NCBI RefSeq assembly: GCF_010091945.1
Contig: NZ_WVIE01000033.1
Location: forward strand, 1-42,460
Source of the DNA: Myxacorys almedinensis A
Lineage (GTDB): Bacteria > Cyanobacteriota > Cyanobacteriia > Leptolyngbyales > Leptolyngbyaceae
DNA length: 42,460 nt
Direction: 5' to 3'
Of the stretch, positions 11,102 through 23,475 are shown in pieces. The translations under genes and the position numbers were made by a program. The notes beneath the pieces were generated by a model, which ran no database searches, was not told the origin of the DNA, and saw only the letters and a list, made by a program, of their open reading frames with translations. Numbering within the stretch: position 1 is the stretch's first letter; every line of letters starts with the position of its first letter.

Positions 11102-12205
11102 CTAGGTCAGCGCTCCCCCACACGAACTCCCTGCCCCCGCCGTGCAGCCAAAACAGTGGCGACCCGTAACAATTTGCCGCCCTGCCAACTGGTCGGGATC
11201 AAAATTGCGGATGTGCATAGGGGCTTGAGCAGACGATGGATTAGACGGGTGACACTCCAACTCCAACATCTGGTTAAAATCGCAGTCAAATAGGCGACCA
11301 TCCCACGAAACCGAGAGCGTGTTGCGACACATCAATCCTTCCACAGTCGCCGGATTAAATGCATTCACCAGCACTTCCATGTAGCTCTGCAAATTGCCCG
11401 ATTGCTCTAGCCATTCCAAATATCGAGAAATCGGCATATTATTCAGCGTGATTAAGCGATCGAAGGTAACTCCCTGATATTTTGCCAATCCTGCCTTCCA
11501 TTCTTGCTCTAGTTTCACTTGGTTGCTCGCCAGAAACGCCCCAACCGGGTTGCTCATCAGCGTCAGTTGTTGCGCTGGATCGCCTTGCCCATAGCCTACG
11601 GCATTGAGCCGGTGTAGCGCCTCGATCGATTTCTCGAACGTGCCATCGCCGCGCTGAGCATCGGTATTGCGCTGACGATAGTGAGGCAAAGAGCAAACAA
11701 TTTCAACGCCGCGATCGCTAAACCATTCGGGCAAATCTTTTAGGGTCGGCAACAGCAGCACCGTCAGATTACAGCGATCAATCACATGCTTGCCTCGCGC
11801 CACACACTGATCGACCAAATAGCGAAAATGGGGATTGAGTTCTGGTGCTCCTCCGGTGATATCGACGGTCTGTGCCTCTGTGCGATCGAGGGCGCGGAGG
11901 CAGTGATCCACCGTCTCGCGGCTCATGTTTTCCTGGGTGCGATCGGGGCTTGAATCTACATGGCAATGCCGACACGCCATGTTACACAGCTTGCCAATGT
12001 TGATCTGAAAAATATCTAATTTAGCGGGGGTCAGAGCAGAGATGCCATGAGCCGATAAGGTTGTTGAGAAATCGCCCCCATGAGGCGCGATCGCAGAAAG
12101 TGCCACTCTTGCCAAGGTATCGCGCTGATAGTGAGCCGATGCCAAAGGAGACTGTCGTTTGAGCAAAGATGAAAGCTTTGAAGGAGCACGATCGAAGGTA
12201 GGCAT
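11102..12205 (-). CDS. arsS: Arsenosugar biosynthesis radical SAM protein ArsS
   Basis: Radical SAM enzyme associated with arsenosugar formation: in studied systems it joins the 5'-deoxyadenosyl group of SAM to methylated arsenic. The 367-residue protein has a classic cluster motif CNMACRHC (C74, C78, C81) and TGGAPELNPHF, the SAM-binding glycine region. The C-terminal domain (DUF3641-like) contains LMCRNTLSVSWDGRLFDCDFN and ends in GRHCFGCTAGAGSSCGG, cysteines probably binding a second cluster. The upstream AhpD-like gene on the same strand is the usual companion. The methyltransferase ArsM that would supply the methylated substrate is not in the window. Confidence 0.92.
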   Translation of the reverse strand: MPTFDRAPSKLSSLLKRQSPLASAHYQRDTLARVALSAIAPHGGDFSTTLSAHGISALTPAKLDIFQINIGKLCNMACRHCHVDSSPDRTQENMSRETVDHCLRALDRTEAQTVDITGGAPELNPHFRYLVDQCVARGKHVIDRCNLTVLLLPTLKDLPEWFSDRGVEIVCSLPHYRQRNTDAQRGDGTFEKSIEALHRLNAVGYGQGDPAQQLTLMSNPVGAFLASNQVKLEQEWKAGLAKYQGVTFDRLITLNNMPISRYLEWLEQSGNLQSYMEVLVNAFNPATVEGLMCRNTLSVSWDGRLFDCDFNQMLELECHPSNPSSAQAPMHIRNFDPDQLAGRQIVTGRHCFGCTAGAGSSCGGALT

Positions 12206-13512: not shown

Positions 13513-13800
13513 TCATTCAATAAACTGCATGAGTTTAACCTTTGGCTGATCGACATGCCGATACTGAGTTGCCCACGCTTCGATGTCTTGTAGTTGTCCC
13601 AGTGCTAAGCCGCAGGGTCTGCCATATTTTGCTTGAACGCGATCGCTAGCTATAATCAATGCCGTGCGCGATCGCTCGATAAACTCATTCAAGGCATACT
13701 CTTGCCCCGCGCTAAAGTAGTCTTTGACAACGAGCGACGGAGAATAGCACGTCGTTTGAGAGCCGTCGGGTAATTCAACTTGAAACCGGATTTCTGGCAT
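13513..13800 (-). CDS. nitG: MSMEG_0570-family nitrogen-starvation protein (Nit1C cluster)
   Basis: 95-residue protein of the small family conserved in Nit1C nitrilase clusters. It starts MPEIRFQVELPDGS and contains YSPSLVVKDYF, LNEFIERSRTAL and the long helix IASDRVQAKYGRPCGLALGQL. No catalytic motif or known fold is obvious and its role is unknown. It begins four bases after the glycosyltransferase stop and is the last gene of the operon; the next gene is convergent. The symbol follows the Pseudomonas nit1C naming from memory and is the least certain of the set. Confidence 0.88.
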   Translation of the reverse strand: MPEIRFQVELPDGSQTTCYSPSLVVKDYFSAGQEYALNEFIERSRTALIIASDRVQAKYGRPCGLALGQLQDIEAWATQYRHVDQPKVKLMQFIE

Positions 13801-13804
13801 GGGG

Positions 13805-14950
13805 TCAAAGAGAGTAGTAGTGATTGAGATGCAATTTGGCAGAAGCCGCCCAGGTGTACTGGTTGCAAATAGGCTGGCTCTGGTGAATCAGATCTTGAGA
13901 AACCGTAGGATGAATCACCGTTTTCATGGCTTGCGCGATCGCATCGGGTGAATAGGGATCGATCAGCAACGCTTGGCGATCGCAGAGAAATTCTGTGAAG
14001 GGATGCTGATTAGACGTAACCACCGGCAGACCTGATGCGATCGCTTCCATAATTACCAGCCCCCAGCCTTCTTTGATCGACGGAAAGACAAACGCATCTG
14101 CCAGCCGATACAGCGCTGCCAACTCTGGTGCTGGCAACACACCCGGCAAAATTAGCGCGTGCTCAAGCTTGGTGTGATTGGCATCTGCGATCGCAAAAAA
14201 CTGATCCCGGTAGTCTTGATAATCAAACAGCGTTGCCCCACCAGCAATGACGAGTTGAGCCGTGGGATAGCTCGCTCGAAGGTGAATCAAGGCTTTGAGC
14301 AACGTAACTGAATTTTTGCGAGGTTCAATTCCTCCAACGGTAAGATAGATAGGATTGCCAGATAAACCTAATCGCTGTTTCAATGCAGATTCTAACCCAT
14401 TAGAAACCGTAGAAAAGCTTTGAAGGTTAACGCCATTTGTCACCCTAGGAGCATAAATTTGATAGCTATGATGAAGCACCTCTTGCCACTGTAGACTCAC
14501 ACAAAGACACAAATCTGCATCACGAATCGAGCGATCTTGGCATTGCTGCAAGTAGAAACTGGTATACGCCTCGATGTGATGAACAGTCCGAATAAAATGG
14601 GGGATTTTTTCCCGTGCTCTTAGAACAGATAGAGCATTAGCGCTAATGCAATCTTGAGCATGATAACAATCATAAACTTGATCAGATGTGCTCAAGTAAT
14701 TAACAAATTCTTGAATCCGTTGCTGAACTAACCCATCAACCTGAGCAGGGGTCGGTCGAGCCGGAATTAATTCGTAGTTACAACGCAACTCTCGATCAAA
14801 TCCTGAGCCATCTTTATCCAGGGCATAAACACAAACGTCGTGCCCCAAATCGTGCAGTGCTTCTGCTAACTCTAACGTGTGCACAACACTGCCCCTCGGC
14901 TTTGTCGAATAGGTAAACAAGGCAATCCGAAGCGCGATCGCACAACTCAT
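13805..14950 (-). CDS. MSMEG_0565-family glycosyltransferase (Nit1C cluster)
   Basis: 381-residue GT-B glycosyltransferase of the GT4 type. The N-terminal half carries the acceptor domain (RIALFTYSTKPRGSVVHTLELAEALHDLGHDV). The C-terminal half has the sugar-nucleotide domain: YLTVGGIEPRKN and PSIKEGWGLVIMEAIASGLPVV (about 290-312), with the EGWGL..ME pattern of the EX7E motif. The start overlaps the stop of nitF by four bases (ATGA), so translation is likely coupled. A transferase in this cluster suggests that the pathway product, or an intermediate, is glycosylated; donor and acceptor are unknown. Confidence 0.92.
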   Translation of the reverse strand: MSCAIALRIALFTYSTKPRGSVVHTLELAEALHDLGHDVCVYALDKDGSGFDRELRCNYELIPARPTPAQVDGLVQQRIQEFVNYLSTSDQVYDCYHAQDCISANALSVLRAREKIPHFIRTVHHIEAYTSFYLQQCQDRSIRDADLCLCVSLQWQEVLHHSYQIYAPRVTNGVNLQSFSTVSNGLESALKQRLGLSGNPIYLTVGGIEPRKNSVTLLKALIHLRASYPTAQLVIAGGATLFDYQDYRDQFFAIADANHTKLEHALILPGVLPAPELAALYRLADAFVFPSIKEGWGLVIMEAIASGLPVVTSNQHPFTEFLCDRQALLIDPYSPDAIAQAMKTVIHPTVSQDLIHQSQPICNQYTWAASAKLHLNHYYSL

Positions 14951-15960
14951 AGACGCATCCTCGCTGCCGAAAATCCGGTTAACTCCTGCTCACAAAAATC
15001 CCAAAACACAACAGAGCGCTCCTGCGGTTGGCTGTGCCCAGCCCGATCAGAGCGCAACACAAGCTGATGAGTCGAGTCGATTTCTCCCACCACTTCGCAC
15101 ACCAAGTCCCGCTGATGAAACTGCGTCTGCACTGCCTCCACCTTCTCAGGGCGGACACTCAACAAAAACCCATAGCTCGGAAAGCAGACTAACCATTGCT
15201 CTAACGACACCCCCGCCGGACGCGGAATCGCATCAACATCAAGCGTTGCCCCACAGCCAGACGTTTCTAGCAGCATGAGCAACGTTCCCACTATGCCGCC
15301 CATGCTAATATCTTTTCCGGCATTACACAGTCCCGATTCTGCGAGGCGGGGCAAAAGGGCTAAATCTTCCCGCAGTTGAGCAGGCTCGGCGGTGGTGGCG
15401 GCGTTCCAAAACGGGTAACTAGGATGAAGTTGCCCTCGATCGTTGAACGCAACCAACAAGCGATCGCCCGATTGAGCATCAAAGCTGGTGATCAGATGAG
15501 TGGCTCGTCCTAAAATTGCCACCGATAAAGCCGCATAGGGGCTATGGGCGTTGGTGTGCCCGCCGACGATGGGAACATTGTAGGCTTTCGATGCCGCCTG
15601 CATTCCGGCTAAAAGAGGGGCACTTTGATCCGGAGATGTGCTCCAGATCGTATCCACGATCGCGGTGGGTCTCCCGCCCATGGCATAGATATCGCTCACG
15701 TTGACCATAACAGCACTCCACCCTGCAAACCACGGTTCCGTCTCCACCAGCGATGGCAACAGCCCTTCTGCGGCTAGCAAGAGGTAGCCTCCTGCTTTGT
15801 CTGGAATTGCCGCACAGTCATCTCCCAAACGAATTTGCGAATCTAAACCTTGCAAATCTAGACCTTGCAAATCTAGAAACTGCTTCGCGATCGGCTGAAT
15901 ATCTTGCTTTTGCACGATCCCAATTGCCTGTTTTAGCCGTGTTGCCAGATCGATCAGCAT
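14947..15960 (-). CDS. nitF: Sll0787-family PurM/AIR-synthase-like protein (Nit1C cluster)
   Basis: 337-residue member of the PurM superfamily (AIR synthase, SelD, ThiL, HypE), ATP-binding proteins that phosphorylate or activate amides, carbonyls or related groups. Visible signatures are IRLGDDCAAIP (Mg-ATP aspartates), VNVSDIYAMGGRPTAIVDTI, IVGGHTN and NAGKDISMGGIVGTLLMLLE. The start at 15960 is chosen because its ATG overlaps the nitE stop in a TAATG junction; a frame from 15975 would add five residues inside nitE. An in-frame 15-bp duplication near the N-terminus gives Leu-Gln-Gly-Leu-Asp twice. True substrate unknown. Confidence 0.9.
   Translation of the reverse strand: MLIDLATRLKQAIGIVQKQDIQPIAKQFLDLQGLDLQGLDSQIRLGDDCAAIPDKAGGYLLLAAEGLLPSLVETEPWFAGWSAVMVNVSDIYAMGGRPTAIVDTIWSTSPDQSAPLLAGMQAASKAYNVPIVGGHTNAHSPYAALSVAILGRATHLITSFDAQSGDRLLVAFNDRGQLHPSYPFWNAATTAEPAQLREDLALLPRLAESGLCNAGKDISMGGIVGTLLMLLETSGCGATLDVDAIPRPAGVSLEQWLVCFPSYGFLLSVRPEKVEAVQTQFHQRDLVCEVVGEIDSTHQLVLRSDRAGHSQPQERSVVFWDFCEQELTGFSAARMRL
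15843..15872 (-). repeat. In-frame 15-bp duplication in nitF
   Basis: CTAAACCTTGCAAAT (15843-15857) and CTAGACCTTGCAAAT (15858-15872) differ at one base and duplicate five residues in the linker before IRLGDD. Frame is preserved, so the protein should tolerate it. Confidence 0.8.
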
Positions 15961-16484
15961 TACGAGGCATCCCATGTTGCAGTGGGCAAGGTTGCAAGGG
16001 GCAACGCCGGACGGGGCTGCACTCCGGCAGGATAGTAATCTAAATCGGCTTGCATCAGATGATGGGGCAGTCCGCAGATCGTCAGTTCCTCTAGCGAGTT
16101 CCAGTGGTGTCGCTGAAAAAAGCGGACGTTTTGCAGTTGTACAGTTGCCAAAAACCGCTCACATCCCCAGGTGTTTGCCGTGGTGACTGCTTTATAAATC
16201 AAGCCTTTGCCAATGTGACCTGTCCGCCGAAAGCCAGCATGAACCCCTAGCCTGCCGCCATACCACAGCCGAGGTTCTGGCTCGTAGATGCGGACAATTC
16301 CAAATACATCCCCCAACCCGGCTGAGGCTGTGGCAATGATGGGGTAGGCGATCGCATCGAGTTCATCCACGTCGCTGCCTGAAAATAAGCCCTGTTCTTC
16401 GACAAAGATAGATCGCCGCAAGGCATAGTAGGCATGAATTTCGGACGGCGCGATCGCAAGCTTAAATTCGTAGGATGGGGACAT
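15960..16484 (-). CDS. nitE: MSMEG_0567/Sll0786-family GNAT N-acetyltransferase (Nit1C cluster)
   Basis: 174-residue protein of the GNAT fold (acetyl- or acyl-CoA dependent). It begins FKLAIAPSEIHAYYALRRSIFVEEQGLF, has a central strand VFGIVRIYEPEPRLWYGGRLGVHAGFRRTGHIGKGLIYKA in which R-x-x-G-x-I/G is the CoA-pyrophosphate loop, and ends with FFQRHHWNSLEEL. It starts three bases after nitD and its stop overlaps the nitF start, so it is translationally coupled. It likely acylates a small amine or amide intermediate; this is inference. Confidence 0.9.
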   Translation of the reverse strand: MSPSYEFKLAIAPSEIHAYYALRRSIFVEEQGLFSGSDVDELDAIAYPIIATASAGLGDVFGIVRIYEPEPRLWYGGRLGVHAGFRRTGHIGKGLIYKAVTTANTWGCERFLATVQLQNVRFFQRHHWNSLEELTICGLPHHLMQADLDYYPAGVQPRPALPLATLPTATWDAS

Positions 16485-16487
16485 GGG

Positions 16488-17582
16488 TTAATCCTGAGAC
16501 TCGAAGATAGAAAGGGCAGAGCAAGCCCCACATTTGGCACAGCCCGCCTTGATCGATTGAGACGACATACCTGCTCGATCCAGCATTCCAGCAATTTGCT
16601 GATAGAGCGTAACCATAAACTCATGGCGAGGAGGGGCATGATCGGCAAGGGGTGTGCCCGTGATCGGCACGAAAGGAACCACAAACGGATAAACGCCGAT
16701 CGTAATCAAGCGATCGCACGCTTCTAGCAAGGCCGGCAGATCATCCCCCAAGCCTGCCAACAGGTAGGTACTCACCTGTCCCCAACCAAAGGTTTTCACG
16801 GCGGCAGCAAACGCCTCAAAATAATACTCAACGGGCACCGTTGCCTTGCCAGGCATGATCCGCGATCGCACGGTTGGATCGACGGCTTCCAAATGCATGC
16901 CTAAACTATCGACCCCAGCCTTTCGCAATCGCTCAAACCAGGCAAAATCATCCGGCGGCTCGCACTGCGCCTGGATCGGTAAATGAACCCACGCCTTGAT
17001 CGCACTGGCGCACTCGGCGAGATAAGCGGCACCGCGATCGCGGGTATTTGGCGTGCCGGTGGTCATCACCATGTGTTTAACGCCATCCAATCTCACCGCC
17101 GCTTCTGCCACTTCGGCGAGGTGGGCAGGCGTCTTACGAGCGCTCGTCCGATCGGCTTCAAGAGATTGCCCAATCGCGCAAAATTGGCAGGAGGTTGCCG
17201 TGTTGCCGTAGCGAATGCAGGTTTGTAAAACCGTTGTCGCCAAAACATCGCGACTGTGCAGCAGCGCAATTTTCCAGTAAGGAATGCCGTCGGCAGTGGT
17301 GAGCCGGTAGAACGACGGCTGAGATGGAAAATAAATCGGCGCGATCGCGGCTCCATCTAATTCCAGAATTGTCTGATCGGTAGAGGCATCAAACCGGGCA
17401 GTGTAGGGCGAGTCTGAAGATGCACTGGTAAAGATGGGAACCATCACCGTCGTATTGTCAATCACGATCGCTTTATGATCCGATGGACCTGCACCCCCTT
17501 TGCGCCCAGATGCCCCAATTTCGGGTTCAATTAACCTTAATCCCTGCGATTGAATTTCTGTAATTAGCTGTTGTTTATTCAT
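16488..17582 (-). CDS. nitD: MSMEG_0568-family radical SAM protein (Nit1C cluster)
   Basis: 364-residue radical SAM-type enzyme. The cluster cysteines are in QTCIRYGNTATSCQFCAIG, that is C122-x9-C132-x2-C135, not the usual C-x3-C-x2-C; a nine-residue spacing is otherwise known from Elp3-like enzymes. VMTTGTPNTRDRG, MHLEAVDPTVRSRIMPGKA and STYLLAGLGDD are the expected SAM-barrel strands. The C-terminus has GCAKCGACSAL (C348, C351, C354), possibly ligands of an auxiliary iron-sulfur cluster. The ATG at 17582 is preferred to a TTG four codons upstream. It lies 91 bases after nitC. Reaction unknown; the family is considered part of the Nit1C pathway. Confidence 0.92.
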   Translation of the reverse strand: MNKQQLITEIQSQGLRLIEPEIGASGRKGGAGPSDHKAIVIDNTTVMVPIFTSASSDSPYTARFDASTDQTILELDGAAIAPIYFPSQPSFYRLTTADGIPYWKIALLHSRDVLATTVLQTCIRYGNTATSCQFCAIGQSLEADRTSARKTPAHLAEVAEAAVRLDGVKHMVMTTGTPNTRDRGAAYLAECASAIKAWVHLPIQAQCEPPDDFAWFERLRKAGVDSLGMHLEAVDPTVRSRIMPGKATVPVEYYFEAFAAAVKTFGWGQVSTYLLAGLGDDLPALLEACDRLITIGVYPFVVPFVPITGTPLADHAPPRHEFMVTLYQQIAGMLDRAGMSSQSIKAGCAKCGACSALSIFESQD

Positions 17583-17673
17583 AGAACTCAGCAATCAACA
17601 ATGGGATTAGACGATCGGATTAGGCGATGGCTTTAGAAGCTAGGTTAAAACATTAACGTTTTCATTCACATCC

Positions 17674-18702
17674 TTACTTGTCAGGCGCTTGAGAAACTGA
17701 TATATAAGGGTTTGGTAGAAATTTGCCAGAATTTGTAAATTCTATTGCCGAATCCGTTGCTAAATCCGTTTCTAAATTTACTGTTACTGGTTTTGCATTC
17801 ATGTTGACCTGTAGCTGCAATAAATCTGATCGCGCGTAATGACCTACCGAATCCATCATCCGTTTACGTTTTGTAATCAGAGAGAAATCGAGATCTGCGA
17901 TCGCAATGCCTTCCCCTTCTGTAATGGGTTCACACAGGTGCTTTCCTTCCGGGCTAACGATCGCGCTATGGCATCCGCCCCTCAGCACCCGTTGCAGGTT
18001 TTCGTCGGGGGTAATCTGCTCAATTTGCTCTGGCGCGAGCCACCCGGTGGAATTTACCACAAAACAGCCAGCCTCTAACGCATGATGGCGAATGGCAACT
18101 TCGAGTTGGTCTGCAAAAATTTGTCCCACCATCGACCCTGGAAACTGAGCACAATGAATCTGTTCGTGCTGCGCCATCAGCGCAAATCGCGCCAACGGAT
18201 TGTAATGTTCCCAGCAAGCTAGCGCGCCAATTCTGCCTGCCGCCGTTTCCACAACCTTTAGACCAGACCCATCTCCTTGCCCCCAAACCATGCGTTCGTG
18301 GTAGGTTGGCGTAATTTTGCGCCGCTTTAGCACCAGAGTGCCGTCTGCGTCAAACACTAGCTGCGTGTTGTACAGCGAACCATGATCCCGCTCGTTGACT
18401 CCCAGCACAACGACTACGTGATGCGATCGCGCCGCGCTAGCAATCTCCTCTGTCACCAGACCGGGAACCTCTACTGCTTCCTCATACAGCCGCAGATGTT
18501 CGCTGCCCATGAGAACCGGGGGCTGAATAAACGAAAAGTAAGGATAGTACGGCACAAAGGTTTCGGGAAACACGATCAGGTGTGCGCCTTGCTTGGCGGC
18601 ATCTGCGATCGCGCTGAGAACTTTTTCAACCGTGCCATCTCGGCTAAACAAGACAGGACTGATCTGCACAGCCGCCGCCCGGACGATGCGTGAATGATTC
18701 AC
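17674..18702 (-). CDS. nitC: Nit1-subgroup nitrilase (Nit1C cluster), GTG start
   Basis: 342-residue carbon-nitrogen hydrolase converting nitriles to acids plus ammonia (or to amides). The full catalytic triad is present: E47 in [12 protein letters not shown]129 in [16 protein letters not shown], and C163 in [17 protein letters not shown]. This pattern and the cluster context place it with Sll0784-type Nit1 nitrilases; the nit1C cluster has been linked to growth on cyanide in Pseudomonas and other bacteria. It starts at GTG (18702) with GGGGAGG four bases before; no ATG fits better. The 450-base upstream gap to nitB is long for this operon and contains a MITE-like element. Confidence 0.94.
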
Positions 18703-19152: not shown

Positions 19153-19635
19153 TTAAAGCGTCCAGGTATCTAAAATAAACGCGCCATCTTTGCGGTGCAT
19201 CAGCACCAAGTCCAGCACATCTAACGGATTGATCGGGCGAATCCCCTCAATTAAGGCTGGCTCTCCGTGCCCATACAGGGCTTGCAGAGCAAACCGACAC
19301 GCATACACCTTGCCGCCCTCTGCCATAAATTTGCCGATCTGATTAGCAAAGTTTTGGTGCCCTGGAAAAGCTTCATCCCCCAGTTTTGGGAAACCGCGCT
19401 GCACCCCCAGCGTGACGCCCGGACCATACAGCAGCATCGACGTTTCAAACCCTTTACGGAGCAATCGCAACGCTTGCAGCATATTGACTAATCCGATCGA
19501 GCCTTCAAAGGCAACGGTATGAAACGTGACCAACGCTTTCTCACCCGGTTCTGCTTTCACATCGGGAAACACTTTCTCTTCGTAATCAACAAAAAAGTCT
19601 CCGGTTTTGTGAGCGGGCGCTGTTACTTCAGGCAT
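19153..19635 (-). CDS. nitB: MSMEG_0572/Sll0783-family nitrogen-starvation protein (Nit1C cluster)
   Basis: 160-residue protein with the start at 19635 (ATG preceded by AGGAG). Family members are always found with Nit1 nitrilases; Synechocystis Sll0783 is induced by nitrogen starvation and needed for polyhydroxybutyrate accumulation. Visible segments: [35 protein letters not shown] and [16 protein letters not shown], which recall the DsrE-like fold. Molecular function is unknown. A longer frame opens at 19689, but that ATG lies upstream of the predicted -10 box and could not be in the mRNA. Confidence 0.92.
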
Positions 19636-19663
19636 AAGTTTCTCCTGATCAAGTGGTGCTGCA

Positions 19664-19706
19664 AGCGTAGATCTTGACTGGAAAAACATTTTGTATCTTT
19701 CGCTAC
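19664..19706 (-). promoter_or_regulatory. NtcA-activated (class II) promoter of nitB
   Basis: Minus strand: an NtcA site GTAGCGAAAGATAC (19706-19693), a 23-base spacer and a -10 box TACGCT (19669-19664). This matches the known layout of NtcA-activated promoters (GTA-N8-TAC, about 22 bases, TAN3T). The ATG follows 28 bases after the -10 box. Confidence 0.85.
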
Positions 19707-19836
19707 TAAAACTAGAATTCTAACGATAGAGATAGGACGTGCGATCGCAAGCCTCAATTCAAGCCGCCTTGATCTGACTAATCCTATCGAAATCGATAGG
19801 TGCGATCGCGTCAATTTGTTCCGTAAGATCCCTCAC

Positions 19837-21111
19837 TCATGATCCCAGCAAAAATTCATTAACAACGCTCCAGGCATTAGAAGGAGACGATTTCTTCCTT
19901 GCCACAATATAATCAGCCAAATAGTTAGCATCGCGAGCAATGCCTGAAAATCGCCCCGATCCCCAGGTATGCAACCACGGCAGTCCCAAAAAGTAGAAGC
20001 CCCAAACTGTGGTCACGCCCCGCTCGTGACCGGGATAGCCCTTGCCATCGAAAACAGGAACATCGATCCAGCGAAAATCGGACTGATAGCCCGTGCACCA
20101 AACCACGGCATCTAGGCTGCCGCAATCGAGTTCTAAAACCTCCTGCTCTGGCTGCCAGACTGGGTGGTAAGGCGGATCGAGGGGGGCATTGATCTGATGT
20201 TTTTCAATGAAGCCATCAATCGTTTTCTTAATGCTTTCAGCCACGGCATCGGCTTGATCTAAGTTGTGTTTAAGATCATCGCAAAATTCTAACGTCTGAG
20301 CGCGTACCGCTTTCACCCGACCATAGAGGCGCATTCCCTCTAGGGCAAATTGGCGCAAGTCGATTTCTCGCCCACCATCGCGCCCGGTGACATAGTGATT
20401 GGCTTTCGTTCTCACCTTTTCTTTTTGGGGATGGTCTTCGACGGATAAATCGTAGTAGCCCATCTGATCAAACCAGTCAACTACATCTTTATCCCGATAA
20501 CGCCGGGGCGATCGCGGCGCACCGCCGACGCAGAGATGCACCTGTTTACCAGCTAAATGCAGGTCTTCCGCAATTTGGCAGCCCGACTGCCCAGTTCCCA
20601 CCACCAACACCCGATCAGGGAGCGACTGCGGCGTTTTATACTCCGACGAATGAAGCTGCACCATCGAATCAGGCAGCCGTTCTGCCAGTCTTGGAATTTT
20701 GGGCGTGTGGTAACTGCCCGCCGCCGCAACCACCTGATCGGCGGTGTAGTCTCCGATCGTGGTTGCCACATGAAACCCGTCTTGAGCTTCGCGCTTAGAA
20801 AGTTTCAGCACTTCAACACCCTCGTGGATGGGAGGATCAAACGATGCCGCGTAGGCTTTGACGTAGTTCACAATGTCATCTTTTTGCATGAACCCTTGGG
20901 GATCATCGCCTGGGTAGGGATAGCCCGGAAGCTGACACTGCCAATTGGGCGTGACGAGGCAGAATGAATCCCAGCGTTTTGCCTGCCACGCATAGCCAAT
21001 CTGATGTTTCTCAAAAATCAGGTGGTGGATGCCTCTCTCTTTGAGACAGTAGCTCATCGAAAGACCTGCCTGACCCCCACCAATAATAATGACCGGATAG
21101 TGATTTCCCAT
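19837..21111 (-). CDS. nitH: MSMEG_0569-family flavin-dependent oxidoreductase (Nit1C cluster)
   Basis: 424-residue FAD/NADPH monooxygenase-like protein with the start at 21111. Two Rossmann motifs are clear: IIIGGGQAGLSMSY (GGGQAG, residues 11-16) for FAD and VLVVGTGQSGCQIAED (GTGQSG, about 172-177) for NAD(P)H, with the VAAAGSYHTPKIPRL segment between them. The C-terminal WCTGYQSDFRWIDVP and GFYFLGLPWLHTWGSGRF segments are typical of this family. The first ATG of the frame (21165) is upstream of the -10 box, so the shorter form is preferred. Likely N- or C-oxidation of a pathway intermediate; the substrate is unknown. Confidence 0.92.
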   Translation of the reverse strand: MGNHYPVIIIGGGQAGLSMSYCLKERGIHHLIFEKHQIGYAWQAKRWDSFCLVTPNWQCQLPGYPYPGDDPQGFMQKDDIVNYVKAYAASFDPPIHEGVEVLKLSKREAQDGFHVATTIGDYTADQVVAAAGSYHTPKIPRLAERLPDSMVQLHSSEYKTPQSLPDRVLVVGTGQSGCQIAEDLHLAGKQVHLCVGGAPRSPRRYRDKDVVDWFDQMGYYDLSVEDHPQKEKVRTKANHYVTGRDGGREIDLRQFALEGMRLYGRVKAVRAQTLEFCDDLKHNLDQADAVAESIKKTIDGFIEKHQINAPLDPPYHPVWQPEQEVLELDCGSLDAVVWCTGYQSDFRWIDVPVFDGKGYPGHERGVTTVWGFYFLGLPWLHTWGSGRFSGIARDANYLADYIVARKKSSPSNAWSVVNEFLLGS

Positions 21112-21139
21112 TATTCGTTCTCTATGGCTGATTGATGCC

Positions 21140-21182
21140 AGCGTAGGGGGTAGCTTAGAGGACATGTTGTAGTTCTGACTAC
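21140..21182 (-). promoter_or_regulatory. NtcA-activated (class II) promoter of nitH
   Basis: Minus strand: GTAGTCAGAACTAC (21182-21169), a 23-base spacer and TACGCT (21145-21140), then 28 bases to the ATG at 21111. The spacing and the -10 hexamer are identical to those of the nitB promoter. Confidence 0.85.
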
Positions 21183-21228
21183 GGAAACCCCAACTCTAGC
21201 AGTAGGGATAGGAGGGTGCCGTTTTGCT

Positions 21229-21243
21229 CGTAAAACCAGGGGT
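21229..21243. other. Short hairpin between the regulator and nitH
   Basis: AAAACC and GGTTTT form a 6-bp stem with a 3-base centre, in the 155 bases between the regulator stop and the nitH promoter. It may help to end the regulator transcript; weak evidence. Confidence 0.3.
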
Positions 21244-21337
21244 TTTGCCTGAAAAATAGTCTACTACTGATCGTCCAACCCTGGCGAAAAAACTAGGGTT
21301 ACTATCGATCAAGCATCCAGGAGCGAGTCATCCGAGA

Positions 21338-22789
21338 TCAAGTAATCCAGCCATTGACGATCGCTTGATGAATGGCTTGATAGCGAGTCCGCACCTTGAG
21401 TTTTGACACCACATTATTCATGTGAAACTTGACAGTGCTTTCGCTGATGGTGAGATGATGGGCAATATCGCGATCGCGCAATCCTTTGACCAAAAGCGCC
21501 ATTACTTCCTGTTCTCGCTCCGAAAGACCGGGTAAGCCTGACGGTTTTATATTCCACGGCTCGCCGCGTGTTACTGATGCGATCGCATCTTGCAACTGGT
21601 CGGCACTCATCGACAAATCTAGCTTTGCCATCACCTGTTTAGCACTTGGATGAGCGAGTTGGGGCAAAGCGGTCACCATCAGCACCAGATGGCAAGCACC
21701 AACCTGAGACAAATCATCTGTCAAAACTGGAATCTCTAGATCATCTTCTAAGCAAACCGTTAATCCGGCTAAATATGATAAATGCGTAAACGCAAACTGC
21801 AACGCTGGAGAAACACAGCGAATCCGCAGTCGCAACCCTAAAATGCAATTAGAATAGGGCAAAACTAGCAACACTTGAAGCAACTTTTGCGCGGCGTCTT
21901 CGTTAATCTGAAGCGTGCCGCCCAGATAAGATGTAGCGAACAACAATTCTTGAAACGGAGATGCCAGTTTGTCAGGCGAATATTCTCTCGTTGAAACCAT
22001 TGCCTCTAAAGAAACGTGGTCGTCTCCGTACGTTAGCCGACCATAGATACAGTGCAACTGATTTAAAATCTCGCCTGCCCGCAGAAACAGACAATCGAGG
22101 GATGTGGTTAAAGGGCGTTCTGTCCCTAGTAATGCCAGCCGCGACTGCTGCAACAGATGCGCCAGTTGCTCAGACAGAGGTGCACAATGGGGCGATGATT
22201 TGGTTGCTAAATGCCAAAACTGCTGTTCTTGCTGGTGGTGCAGAGCGTTATCTAGCGCAACCGTAACCGTTGTACACAGACCCTGCAAAATTTCTAGAAA
22301 TTCTGGCTCCATCGCCTGCTGGCTGAACACTGCCAACACCCCAATCACTTGCTCGGCGGTCGCTAATGGATATCCGGCAAACCCCCGGATCTGATGTGCG
22401 ATCGCCCACTCTCGATCTTTGACCCAGAGTTCGTCTGCCAACTGATTACTCAAAAATGGGATGCCGTGTTGGGCAATTTTCCCCACCTTAAACGCCCCCA
22501 TCGGCACTCTTGCAAACGCCCCATCCAGGCGAGTGTACATTCCTGAAGACGCGACCAGTTTGAGCATGGCGCGCTCTTCGGGATCGGCGTACAGCACATC
22601 GCGCTCTACGATCCAGATGCGAGCGAAGGCACAGCCAAACTTTTCGACCAGCCCATCGGTGATGCGACCCGCGATCGCAGATGTCTCTAAACAGCCACTC
22701 AAACTTTGGGCAATTTCATTGGCTTGCCGTAGCCCCAACAAGAGCCGAGTCGAATCTAAAAAACCAGACGATAATTCAGACACAAGCAA
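21338..22789 (-). CDS. GAF-domain LuxR-type transcriptional regulator, non-ATG start
   Basis: 483-residue regulator. Residues about 25-185 look like a GAF sensor domain (IAQSLSGCLETSAIAGRITDGLVEKFGCAFARIWIVE ... GFAGYPLATAEQVIGVLAVFSQ). A less conserved middle region follows. The C-terminus is a LuxR/FixJ helix-turn-helix (GLSEREQEVMALLVKGLRDRDIAHHLTISESTVKFHMNNVVSKL, about 418-462). No receiver domain is seen, so control is probably by a ligand or redox signal at GAF. No ATG precedes the GAF domain: the frame opens after a TAG with TTG (22789) and GTG (22783) as the possible starts and no clear Shine-Dalgarno. Upstream of and co-oriented with nitH, it is the likely pathway-specific regulator (inference). 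Confidence 0.88.
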   Translation of the reverse strand: MLVSELSSGFLDSTRLLLGLRQANEIAQSLSGCLETSAIAGRITDGLVEKFGCAFARIWIVERDVLYADPEERAMLKLVASSGMYTRLDGAFARVPMGAFKVGKIAQHGIPFLSNQLADELWVKDREWAIAHQIRGFAGYPLATAEQVIGVLAVFSQQAMEPEFLEILQGLCTTVTVALDNALHHQQEQQFWHLATKSSPHCAPLSEQLAHLLQQSRLALLGTERPLTTSLDCLFLRAGEILNQLHCIYGRLTYGDDHVSLEAMVSTREYSPDKLASPFQELLFATSYLGGTLQINEDAAQKLLQVLLVLPYSNCILGLRLRIRCVSPALQFAFTHLSYLAGLTVCLEDDLEIPVLTDDLSQVGACHLVLMVTALPQLAHPSAKQVMAKLDLSMSADQLQDAIASVTRGEPWNIKPSGLPGLSEREQEVMALLVKGLRDRDIAHHLTISESTVKFHMNNVVSKLKVRTRYQAIHQAIVNGWIT

Positions 22790-23475
22790 TGGCTAATCGT
22801 GAATGGATGATTCGCATTAAGTGGGGATCGATAGATTTAGCTAGCTCATAATTTTATGCACTCTCGCCTTCAGGTATTGTAATTGTAGTGGAGGGTAGTT
22901 TTTAAGGTCAGCCGTTAAGAGTGGTTGTAAGGTTAGTCGCGATCGCAGATCTGCTCCGTCTGACCCCACACTTAGTATCACCGCTCGCCTGTCTTCGCTA
23001 ACGTTGGCGCATTAGAGTGATCCGCTCAAAAAACTATTACAGAGTGTAGCGAAGAATTGAGAAGTCTATCAAAGGTATGAAATCTGCCGCACAAAAGTTC
23101 AAAAAGCCCTACGATGCAAAAGTTTTAAGGTTCAATCAGGTTTAGGAACAAACAGCAGATTTTGATTTGTGATTAGATTATGCTCTGGGTTAGATTGTGA
23201 TTTTCTTCAAATTCATTAAATTATTGAAGACCTCAACAACCTTGTTCATCACAAAACCTATCTCAAGCGTATCTTAATAGTTATCAAGCAGTTATCAAGC
23301 AGTTATCAAGCAACGATTGCAACCACCTTGGCAAAAGTTTGAGCTAGCCGATAGCTAACGTCTAAATTTAGTGATTAATCTAGATTAGGCTCGAAATACT
23401 TGCCAGAATTTAAGAAAGCTTTAGTCTTAGCATTGCCGTTCACGAGATCTTGTAGTCTTCTTTAGGTTTTACTTC
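22790..23475. other. Long divergent spacer, regulator / GH57 gene
   Basis: 686 bases without a gene, AT-rich in the right half. It holds the promoters of the regulator (minus) and the GH57 gene (plus). Notable: an 11-bp tandem repeat (23279-23311) and a small hairpin AGCTA-N5-TAGCT (23342-23356). No GTA-N8-TAC site was found. Confidence 0.6.
23279..23311. repeat. 11-bp tandem repeat, three units
   Basis: AGTTATCAAGC is repeated three times exactly, about 165 bases upstream of the GH57 gene. The 11-bp period is close to a helical turn, so the copies would face the same side of the DNA; this could be iterated regulator sites or plain slippage. Confidence 0.85.

Follow-up and report, generated by a model that had tools for sequence, protein, structure and literature searches.

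We propose that the GAF-LuxR regulator (REG) encoded upstream of the Nit1C gene cluster of Myxacorys almedinensis A is a dedicated, trans-acting regulator of that cluster, which would bind an inverted repeat in the nitH and nitB promoters and help NtcA to activate both. We regard this reading as likely. With its site paired to the NtcA site at a fixed distance, REG is probably the second control that the cyanide/nitrile-use genes have for themselves.

The Nit1C cluster and the regulator gene

The stretch of DNA analysed here (the window) is 42,460 nucleotides long. It carries a Nit1C set, with TIGR04044, TIGR04048, TIGR04043, TIGR04045, TIGR04049 and TIGR04046 all above cut-off. The initial annotation had placed the regulator upstream of this cluster and in the same orientation, which was confirmed by the order nitH-nitB-nitC-nitD-nitE-nitF-glycosyltransferase, each above its NCBIfam cut-off. 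It had also called the cluster an NtcA regulon, in agreement with the NtcA gene in the genome (388.5 bits, cut-off 244.95) and the exact GTAN8TAC boxes ahead of nitH and nitB. The genes and domains are:

21338-22789, minus strand: ORF encoding REG, 483 codons/aa as listed, with a TTG start
21338..22783, minus strand: REG with the proposed GTG 22783 start, from comparison of the start column among relatives
22250..22681, minus strand: GAF domain of REG, residues 37-180 (Pfam and fold match)
21365..21526, minus strand: LuxR/GerE helix-turn-helix of REG, residues 422-475 (Pfam)
19837..21111, minus strand: nitH, flavin-dependent oxidoreductase (TIGR04046); listed ORF 19837-21165, model match from listed residue 23
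19153..19635, minus strand: nitB (TIGR04044, Sll0783 family) with the proposed ATG 19635; listed ORF 19153-19689, model match from listed residue 20
17674..18702, minus strand: nitC, nitrilase (TIGR04048, Nit6803 family; NCBIfam)
16488..17594, minus strand: nitD, radical SAM protein (TIGR04043; NCBIfam)
15960..16484, minus strand: nitE, GNAT acetyltransferase (TIGR04045; NCBIfam)
14947..15975, minus strand: nitF, AIR-synthase-like (TIGR04049; NCBIfam)
13805..14950, minus strand: cluster glycosyltransferase (TIGR04047; NCBIfam)
13513..13800, minus strand: nitG-like protein of 95 aa, from position, length and similar small ORFs beside other nit clusters

Beyond the cluster, positions 11102-12205 encode a radical SAM protein of the ArsS type, which belongs to arsenosugar synthesis (TIGR04167, 414 bits against a cut-off of 300). 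Tandem short copies of ttgataactgc occupy positions 23278-23310, between REG and a divergent GH57/DUF3536 gene.

The identification of the 21338-22789 frame as a GAF-LuxR regulator was borne out by Pfam. GAF_2 matches residues 37-180 with 50.9 bits and GAF reaches 36.3 bits, both above the curated cut-offs, and the C-terminal GerE helix-turn-helix (PF00196) scores 65 bits against a cut-off of 23.5 and is matched by all 46 of the 46 aligned sequences of the family. Receiver or kinase domains were not found in Pfam even at E values up to 5. Nor did Pfam return an autoinducer-binding domain; the sensor part is a GAF domain, unlike that of the LuxR proteins of AHL quorum sensing. A frame in the same genome that is 34% identical (G000:C4) was judged by eye to be a GAF-type histidine kinase and not an orthologue of REG.

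The start of the gene had been left between TTG 22789 and GTG 22783, with no ATG before the GAF domain. That absence stands: after an in-frame TAG (22795-22793), these two codons are the sole starts before the conserved helix 'LDSTRLL', and there is no ATG in the frame ahead of the helix or the GAF domain. It is not peculiar to one genome either, since 50 of 93 REG sequences (a few duplicates included) have no ATG available within 40 codons. The two alternatives could be narrowed, because 55 of 81 sequences have a start codon (GTG 37, ATG 14, TTG 4) in the column of GTG 22783, transferred without gaps. GTG 22783 is thus more probably the start, and TTG 22789 was dropped.

NtcA-activated promoters carry the GTAN8TAC box about 22-23 nt ahead of the -10 element. 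Both the nitH and the nitB promoter appear to fit this layout, with 23 nt from GTAN8TAC to TACGCT. The listed ATG codons of nitH (21165) and nitB (19689) lie a few bases past the NtcA box and upstream of the implied transcript starts, which makes ATG 21111 and ATG 19635 the better candidates and probably the true starts.

An inverted repeat at a fixed distance from the NtcA box

An inverted repeat, CTANC-N6-GNTAG, precedes the NtcA box by 13 nt in the nitH and nitB promoters. The spacer 21183-21337 thus contains a predicted site of the LuxR-box form (21196-21211), fixed in position relative to the NtcA box and repeated at nitB:

21196..21211, minus strand: predicted site for REG ahead of nitH, CTATCCCTACTGCTAG, inverted repeat with CT-N12-AG geometry
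21169..21182, minus strand: NtcA box of nitH, GTAGTCAGAACTAC, exact GTAN8TAC, 13 nt downstream of the repeat
21140..21145, minus strand: putative -10-like element of nitH, TACGCT, placed by sequence 23 nt past the NtcA box
19720..19735, minus strand: predicted site for REG ahead of nitB, CTATCTCTATCGTTAG, inverted repeat
19693..19706, minus strand: NtcA box of nitB, GTAGCGAAAGATAC, exact GTAN8TAC
19664..19669, minus strand: putative -10-like element of nitB, TACGCT, placed by sequence 23 nt past the NtcA box

Alignments that were anchored on the NtcA box and ignored the repeat gave the consensus CCTAnCnnTAnCGCTAGACTT-n5-TTCn-GTAN8TAC for nitH (40 sequences less than 85% alike) and CCTnTCnnTAnnGnTAGACnT-n5-TTTT-GTAN8TAC for nitB (55 sequences less than 85% alike). 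CT-N12-AG is a motif reported for LuxR-type factors in two papers (PMC6113619, PMC4074388). Inverted repeats of this kind are conserved at nit promoters, and REG is their predicted binder.

We counted promoters that match the repeat in at least 6 of 8 positions. Where REG is present, 40 of 64 nitB and 40 of 48 nitH promoters do so; where it is missing, none does, neither in family f19 (0/12 for nitB, 0/12 for nitH), which we take to be picocyanobacteria, nor in genome G159 (0/1). The spacing was 13 nt in 79 of the 80 nit cases, and shifted controls gave 0-6 of 65 for nitB and 2-14 of 48 for nitH. Several of the apparent misses at nitB match in part at a place 390-610 nt ahead of the gene. A count per locus searched 700 nt and tolerated one differing letter in the NtcA core. 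Here 6 or more of the 8 positions matched at 60 of 69 nit loci accompanied by REG, some genomes being counted twice (e.g. L122, L210), and at 0 of 13 loci without it. Nine of the 69 REG-accompanied loci are without a good site. All but one of the 60 scoring loci (59/60) keep the 13-nt spacing. The site is found both where a nit gene is near REG (26/30) and where REG is not beside nitC (34/39), a few of these 'unlinked' genomes having REG next to nitH on a separate contig; L211, one of 40 unlinked loci, was left out because it has no nitB or nitH start. Among the 25 nitrilase genomes of our phylum sample, the site occurs in 11 of 12 with REG and in 0 of 13 without (Fisher p 2.7e-6), an absence that is confounded with kinship because 12 of the 13 REG-less genomes belong to f19.

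The Nit1C clusters of f19 (L223-L230, L232-L235) have no REG, no repeat and no exact GTAN8TAC ahead of nitB/nitH; GTAN8CAC or GTGN8TAC-like boxes take the place of the exact NtcA box. The short form of REG (L046-L050) is accompanied by repeat scores of 7 or 8 of 8 in four of five genomes, and by a score of only 5 in G058.

Predicted mode of action

The repeat lies directly upstream of an activator box, its spacing is fixed and it is absent together with REG, which suggests co-activation with NtcA. The LuxR-type helix-turn-helix of REG, probably as a dimer, would bind the 16-bp repeat, whose centre lies 28 bp ahead of the NtcA box, at the promoters of nitH and nitB, and would help NtcA to turn both on. 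Full nit expression would then require nitrogen shortage, reported by NtcA, and a signal that we infer to be sensed by the GAF domain.

The strongest competing reading, which we consider unlikely, is that REG binds the same site but represses the nit genes until a ligand such as a nitrile or a cyanide adduct arrives. Ligand-released repressors are common for catabolic genes, and the GAF domain is conserved. The site, however, is upstream of the activator box, at about -70 from the inferred transcript start and not over the promoter, and the loss of both REG and the site in f19 fits a missing extra activator at least as well. It is from the upstream position of the repeat that we infer activation rather than repression.

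Genome-wide specificity of the site and the promoter of REG

The exact composite CTANCN6GNTAG-N13-GTAN8TAC occurs at two places in the 4.96-Mb genome, the nitB and nitH promoters, where simple arithmetic on 14 fixed bases gives a chance expectation of about 0.04. One single-mismatch composite lies elsewhere than at nit genes, and no enrichment was seen in this genome when up to 3 mismatches were allowed (200 places; reversed control 924). A pattern that was exact but somewhat broader had 34 matches in 27 of 60 REG-bearing genomes, a set that contains duplicates (G060=G402 and G193=G430 by coordinates). nitH or nitB follows directly downstream in 33 of the 34, and the remaining match (G394) comes immediately after nitH at the end of a contig, where nitB would be the next gene; the reversed pattern had 18 matches in those 60 genomes. 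In the 386-genome sample of the phylum the pattern was present in 14 genomes (reversed control, about 30 matches). Eight of these have REG, with the pattern always at nit genes, and the other six have neither REG nor a nitrilase above cut-off, nor a nit gene within 1.5 kb. A strict pattern of the repeat without the NtcA box gave 10 matches in 54 REG-bearing genomes, of which 8 are at nit genes by coordinates and 2 elsewhere. With repeat and composite matches mostly at nit genes, the regulon of REG looks very small.

We also examined the promoters of REG itself. An exact NtcA box lies 45-210 nt upstream in 53 of 85 (shuffled sequences 4.8%), at 61-69 nt from the first query residue in 28 of the 53, and GTGN8TAC is the best match in 13 of the other 32. 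In the window, the search of the REG promoter returned no NtcA box; the best candidate has 5 of 6 letters, lies at 109 nt and lacks the GT at the start. An NtcA -> REG -> nit feed-forward loop is therefore likely in much of the REG family but less evident in this genome, whose REG is probably expressed by other means. The repeat, in turn, scores 6 or more in just 2 of 85 REG promoters, so that it is not a general part of NtcA promoters.

This last result bears on the reading that the repeat is the site of another protein, or a longer NtcA or RNA-polymerase element, and that REG merely co-occurs with Nit1C. Binding of REG to the repeat is a prediction, the fixed spacing to the NtcA box could mean one composite element, and the REG-less comparison set is mostly one family, all of which leave this reading some room. 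We nevertheless think it improbable, somewhat more so than repression, as REG promoters often have the NtcA box and almost never the repeat, the exact composites of REG-bearing genomes stand at nit genes (and, in G394, behind nitH), and the CT-N12-AG geometry suits a LuxR-type dimer.

Co-occurrence and physical linkage of REG and Nit1C

Genome content was compared in the sample of 386 genomes, with the REG search run at E values up to 1e-15 and the four best candidates scored per genome. The Nit1C nitrilase was above cut-off in 25 genomes, and relatives matching REG along the full length (long or short form) were found in 13. The nitrilase is present in 12 of these 13, the exception being G133; the association has a Fisher p of 3.4e-15, uncorrected for phylogenetic kinship. 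Twelve of the 25 nitrilase genomes are members of f19 (1.6-3.7 Mb) and none of them has REG, while outside f19 REG accompanies the nitrilase in 12 of 13 genomes and is missing from G159. Pfam detected no other regulator in the five ORFs beside Nit1C of G289 (f19), nor in the five beside that of G159. In genera g1, g7, g17, g19 and g57, REG was present in those sampled members that have Nit1C and absent from the others; REG and the nit genes are not neighbours in g57, so that the pairing there is not hitch-hiking.

A second set comprised the best 80 of 402 relatives from 84,980 species genomes, all cyanobacterial by their titles. Nitrilases were checked for 50 of these 80 loci, some of which have an adjacent nit gene, by searching 48 genomes (L071 and L099 were left out). 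We found the nitrilase in 43 of the 48 (40 above cut-off, 3 fragments). Among the negative genomes, G394 has nitH beside REG (L077), G424 has the cluster glycosyltransferase beside REG (L120), and G426 has nitH elsewhere in the genome. G396 and G409, both of metagenome origin, have REG with no nitrilase match, no nit gene in the REG flanks and no composite promoter site. The clearest exception to the pairing is REG on a 3541-base contig of G133 (L042), a genome in which the nitrilase was not matched; L102, from the Snowella MAG G409, is apparently the same contig, likewise without a nitrilase match.

Nitrilase relatives outside Nit1C were seen as well. Stand-alone relatives of about 470 bits, below cut-off, occur in G185 (L034/L236) and G390 (G390:C89), the latter together with a true nitC. 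The one in G185, a genome of the same genus, was not counted as Nit1C (468.8 bits, with no other nit genes in 16 kb). At L035 (G221:C1:331705-332607), a nitrilase match of 202 bits contains an in-frame stop and may be a copy in decay.

Physical linkage is less common. A nit gene lies within the examined flank at 28 of the 80 REG loci (in L120, L134 and L136 the glycosyltransferase only), and in 19 of the 28 it begins at most 1.5 kb downstream of REG and is co-oriented. The other 52 loci show no nit gene in the examined flank, and for 20 of these the flanks extend 9.9 kb each way; among the 30 loci with that much sequence on both sides, 10 have one. The claim that the regulator travels with Nit1C therefore holds for genome content but, with a minority of loci, not for adjacency: REG is usually found away from Nit1C by position and not by genome. 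Where REG sits apart, the 22 largest neighbour families gave no conserved partner and nothing beyond synteny within lineages. Distances of REG and NitC are correlated (Mantel rho 0.60 for 61 pairs, a value reached in 0 of 999 permutations), a result that we did not take as support since common species history explains it equally well.

That REG is an ordinary local or stress regulator beside Nit1C by chance, with its main targets elsewhere, would suit the 52 loci lacking a nit gene in the flank, but is very improbable given the nitrilase in nearly all sampled REG genomes, the 8 of 10 strict repeat matches at nit genes, and non-nit neighbour families (among the 22 largest) that are lineage-bound save for single stray members.

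Hidden folds in the regulator

An AlphaFold2 model of full-length REG (46 sequences) had a mean pLDDT of 88 and a pTM of 0.45, so that the arrangement of the domains is uncertain. The GAF domain is modelled with a clear fold (best match Z 19.9 over 164 residues, 2.6 A), from which its ligand is not readable. GAF domains dominated the fold searches with the whole model, and the middle, residues 198-419, was then folded alone (pLDDT 89, pTM 0.71). It contains two parts:

21848..22186, minus strand: cryptic GHKL/HATPase (CA)-like domain, residues about 202-314, from the model fold; catalytic motifs not conserved
21539..21841, minus strand: shrunken receiver-like domain, residues about 317-417, from the model fold

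Residues 202-314 resemble the CA domains of DosS (Z 14.3, 111 aligned, 2.4 A), DesK and VraS, and Foldseek ranks the CA domain of VanSA first for the middle (E 8.2e-6). For residues 317-417 the similarity is to the receiver of ChrA (Z 10.4, 100 aligned, 2.8 A), with no other receiver among the matches listed, and a profile alignment spans the end of the DesR receiver into the DesR helix-turn-helix. The initial annotation had stated that REG has no phosphorylation domain. This stands in sequence searches, but AlphaFold and fold comparison point to degenerate kinase-CA-like and receiver-like folds in residues 202-417. For the window protein, residues 198-419 gave no sequence homology to PDB, Pfam or NCBIfam families; in relatives, weak family matches appeared in only one to three of 41 sequences, and none of the 41 had a Pfam receiver match in the middle region at E values up to 10.

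The catalytic hallmarks are not conserved. The N, DxG and GxG ATP-binding motifs are absent from the conserved columns of the middle region, and no His is conserved outside the helix-turn-helix, leaving neither a conserved phospho-acceptor nor a match to the definition of a histidine kinase. As to the receiver, D358 is nearly invariant, and the acidic pair and the Lys are not among the conserved columns. The short form of REG (5 of the first 13 orthologues) is missing residues about 313-420, the receiver-like part. Because CA- and receiver-like folds occur together with unconserved catalytic motifs and His and with a receiver part that the short form lacks, we interpret REG, by inference from the models, as a collapsed two-component system in which self-phosphorylation is not to be expected. 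It seems an even bet that this one-chain system of GAF domain, pseudo-kinase, pseudo-receiver and LuxR helix-turn-helix acts in trans on a single pathway as the AND-gate of cyanide/nitrile use, in which REG would dock at a fixed distance from NtcA and the inputs would be nitrogen hunger and a second signal.

Comparison with known systems

Presumably, NtcA control of the Nit1C cluster was known before. The cluster and its repression by ammonium have been described (PMC10094980), and the 2005 definition of Nit1C, from seven clusters in several phyla, reported that a conserved transcription-factor site was not found upstream (PMC1199592). In the literature searched, of which most subscription papers were not part and some papers were covered in excerpts, we found no report linking cyanobacterial Nit1C with a regulator of the LuxR type. 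What appears to be new, as not found in that literature, is the candidate trans-acting regulator family tied to Nit1C, the composite site and the hidden domains. Both nit promoters can thereby be assigned a concrete composite site, specific in the genome, together with a candidate protein. The control of cyanide/nitrile use becomes open to direct tests, and the GAF domain gives access to the true inducer and hence to the substrate of the pathway. If our proposal is true, cyanobacterial cyanide/nitrile use would be an AND-gate of nitrogen hunger and a second signal.

In the Pseudomonas nit1C cluster a regulator gene, nitA, adjoins nitBCDEFGH, as REG adjoins its cluster (PMC11049912). NitA is a Fis-family, sigma54-dependent regulator according to the same source, whereas REG has a GAF domain and a GerE helix-turn-helix and, by Pfam, no such domain. 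In Synechocystis, Sll0782 is numbered adjacent to sll0783 (nitB type) and annotated as an HTH protein or as 'protein kinase, transcriptional regulator' in two studies (PMC5318462, PMC10094980). According to these studies, sll0782 is repressed by ammonium as its operon is (log2 -1.58; PMC10094980), and its mutant is one of seven in which metabolism changed most strongly at 48 h (PMC5318462). Sll0782 as the REG orthologue, from gene numbering and annotation, is an unproven lead.

Kinases of the DosS/DesK/VraS type and NarL-type regulators are partners in ordinary two-component systems. REG appears to share their CA-like and receiver-like folds and the helix-turn-helix. Unlike those pairs, it is one chain, has no conserved phospho-acceptor His or ATP motifs, and its receiver is shrunken or absent. 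With regard to function, a close parallel may be NtcB, a LysR-type, pathway-specific second regulator at NtcA-dependent promoters. NtcB and other co-activators have the role that we propose for REG, which differs from NtcB in being of the LuxR type and would be a LuxR-type, pathway-specific partner of NtcA.
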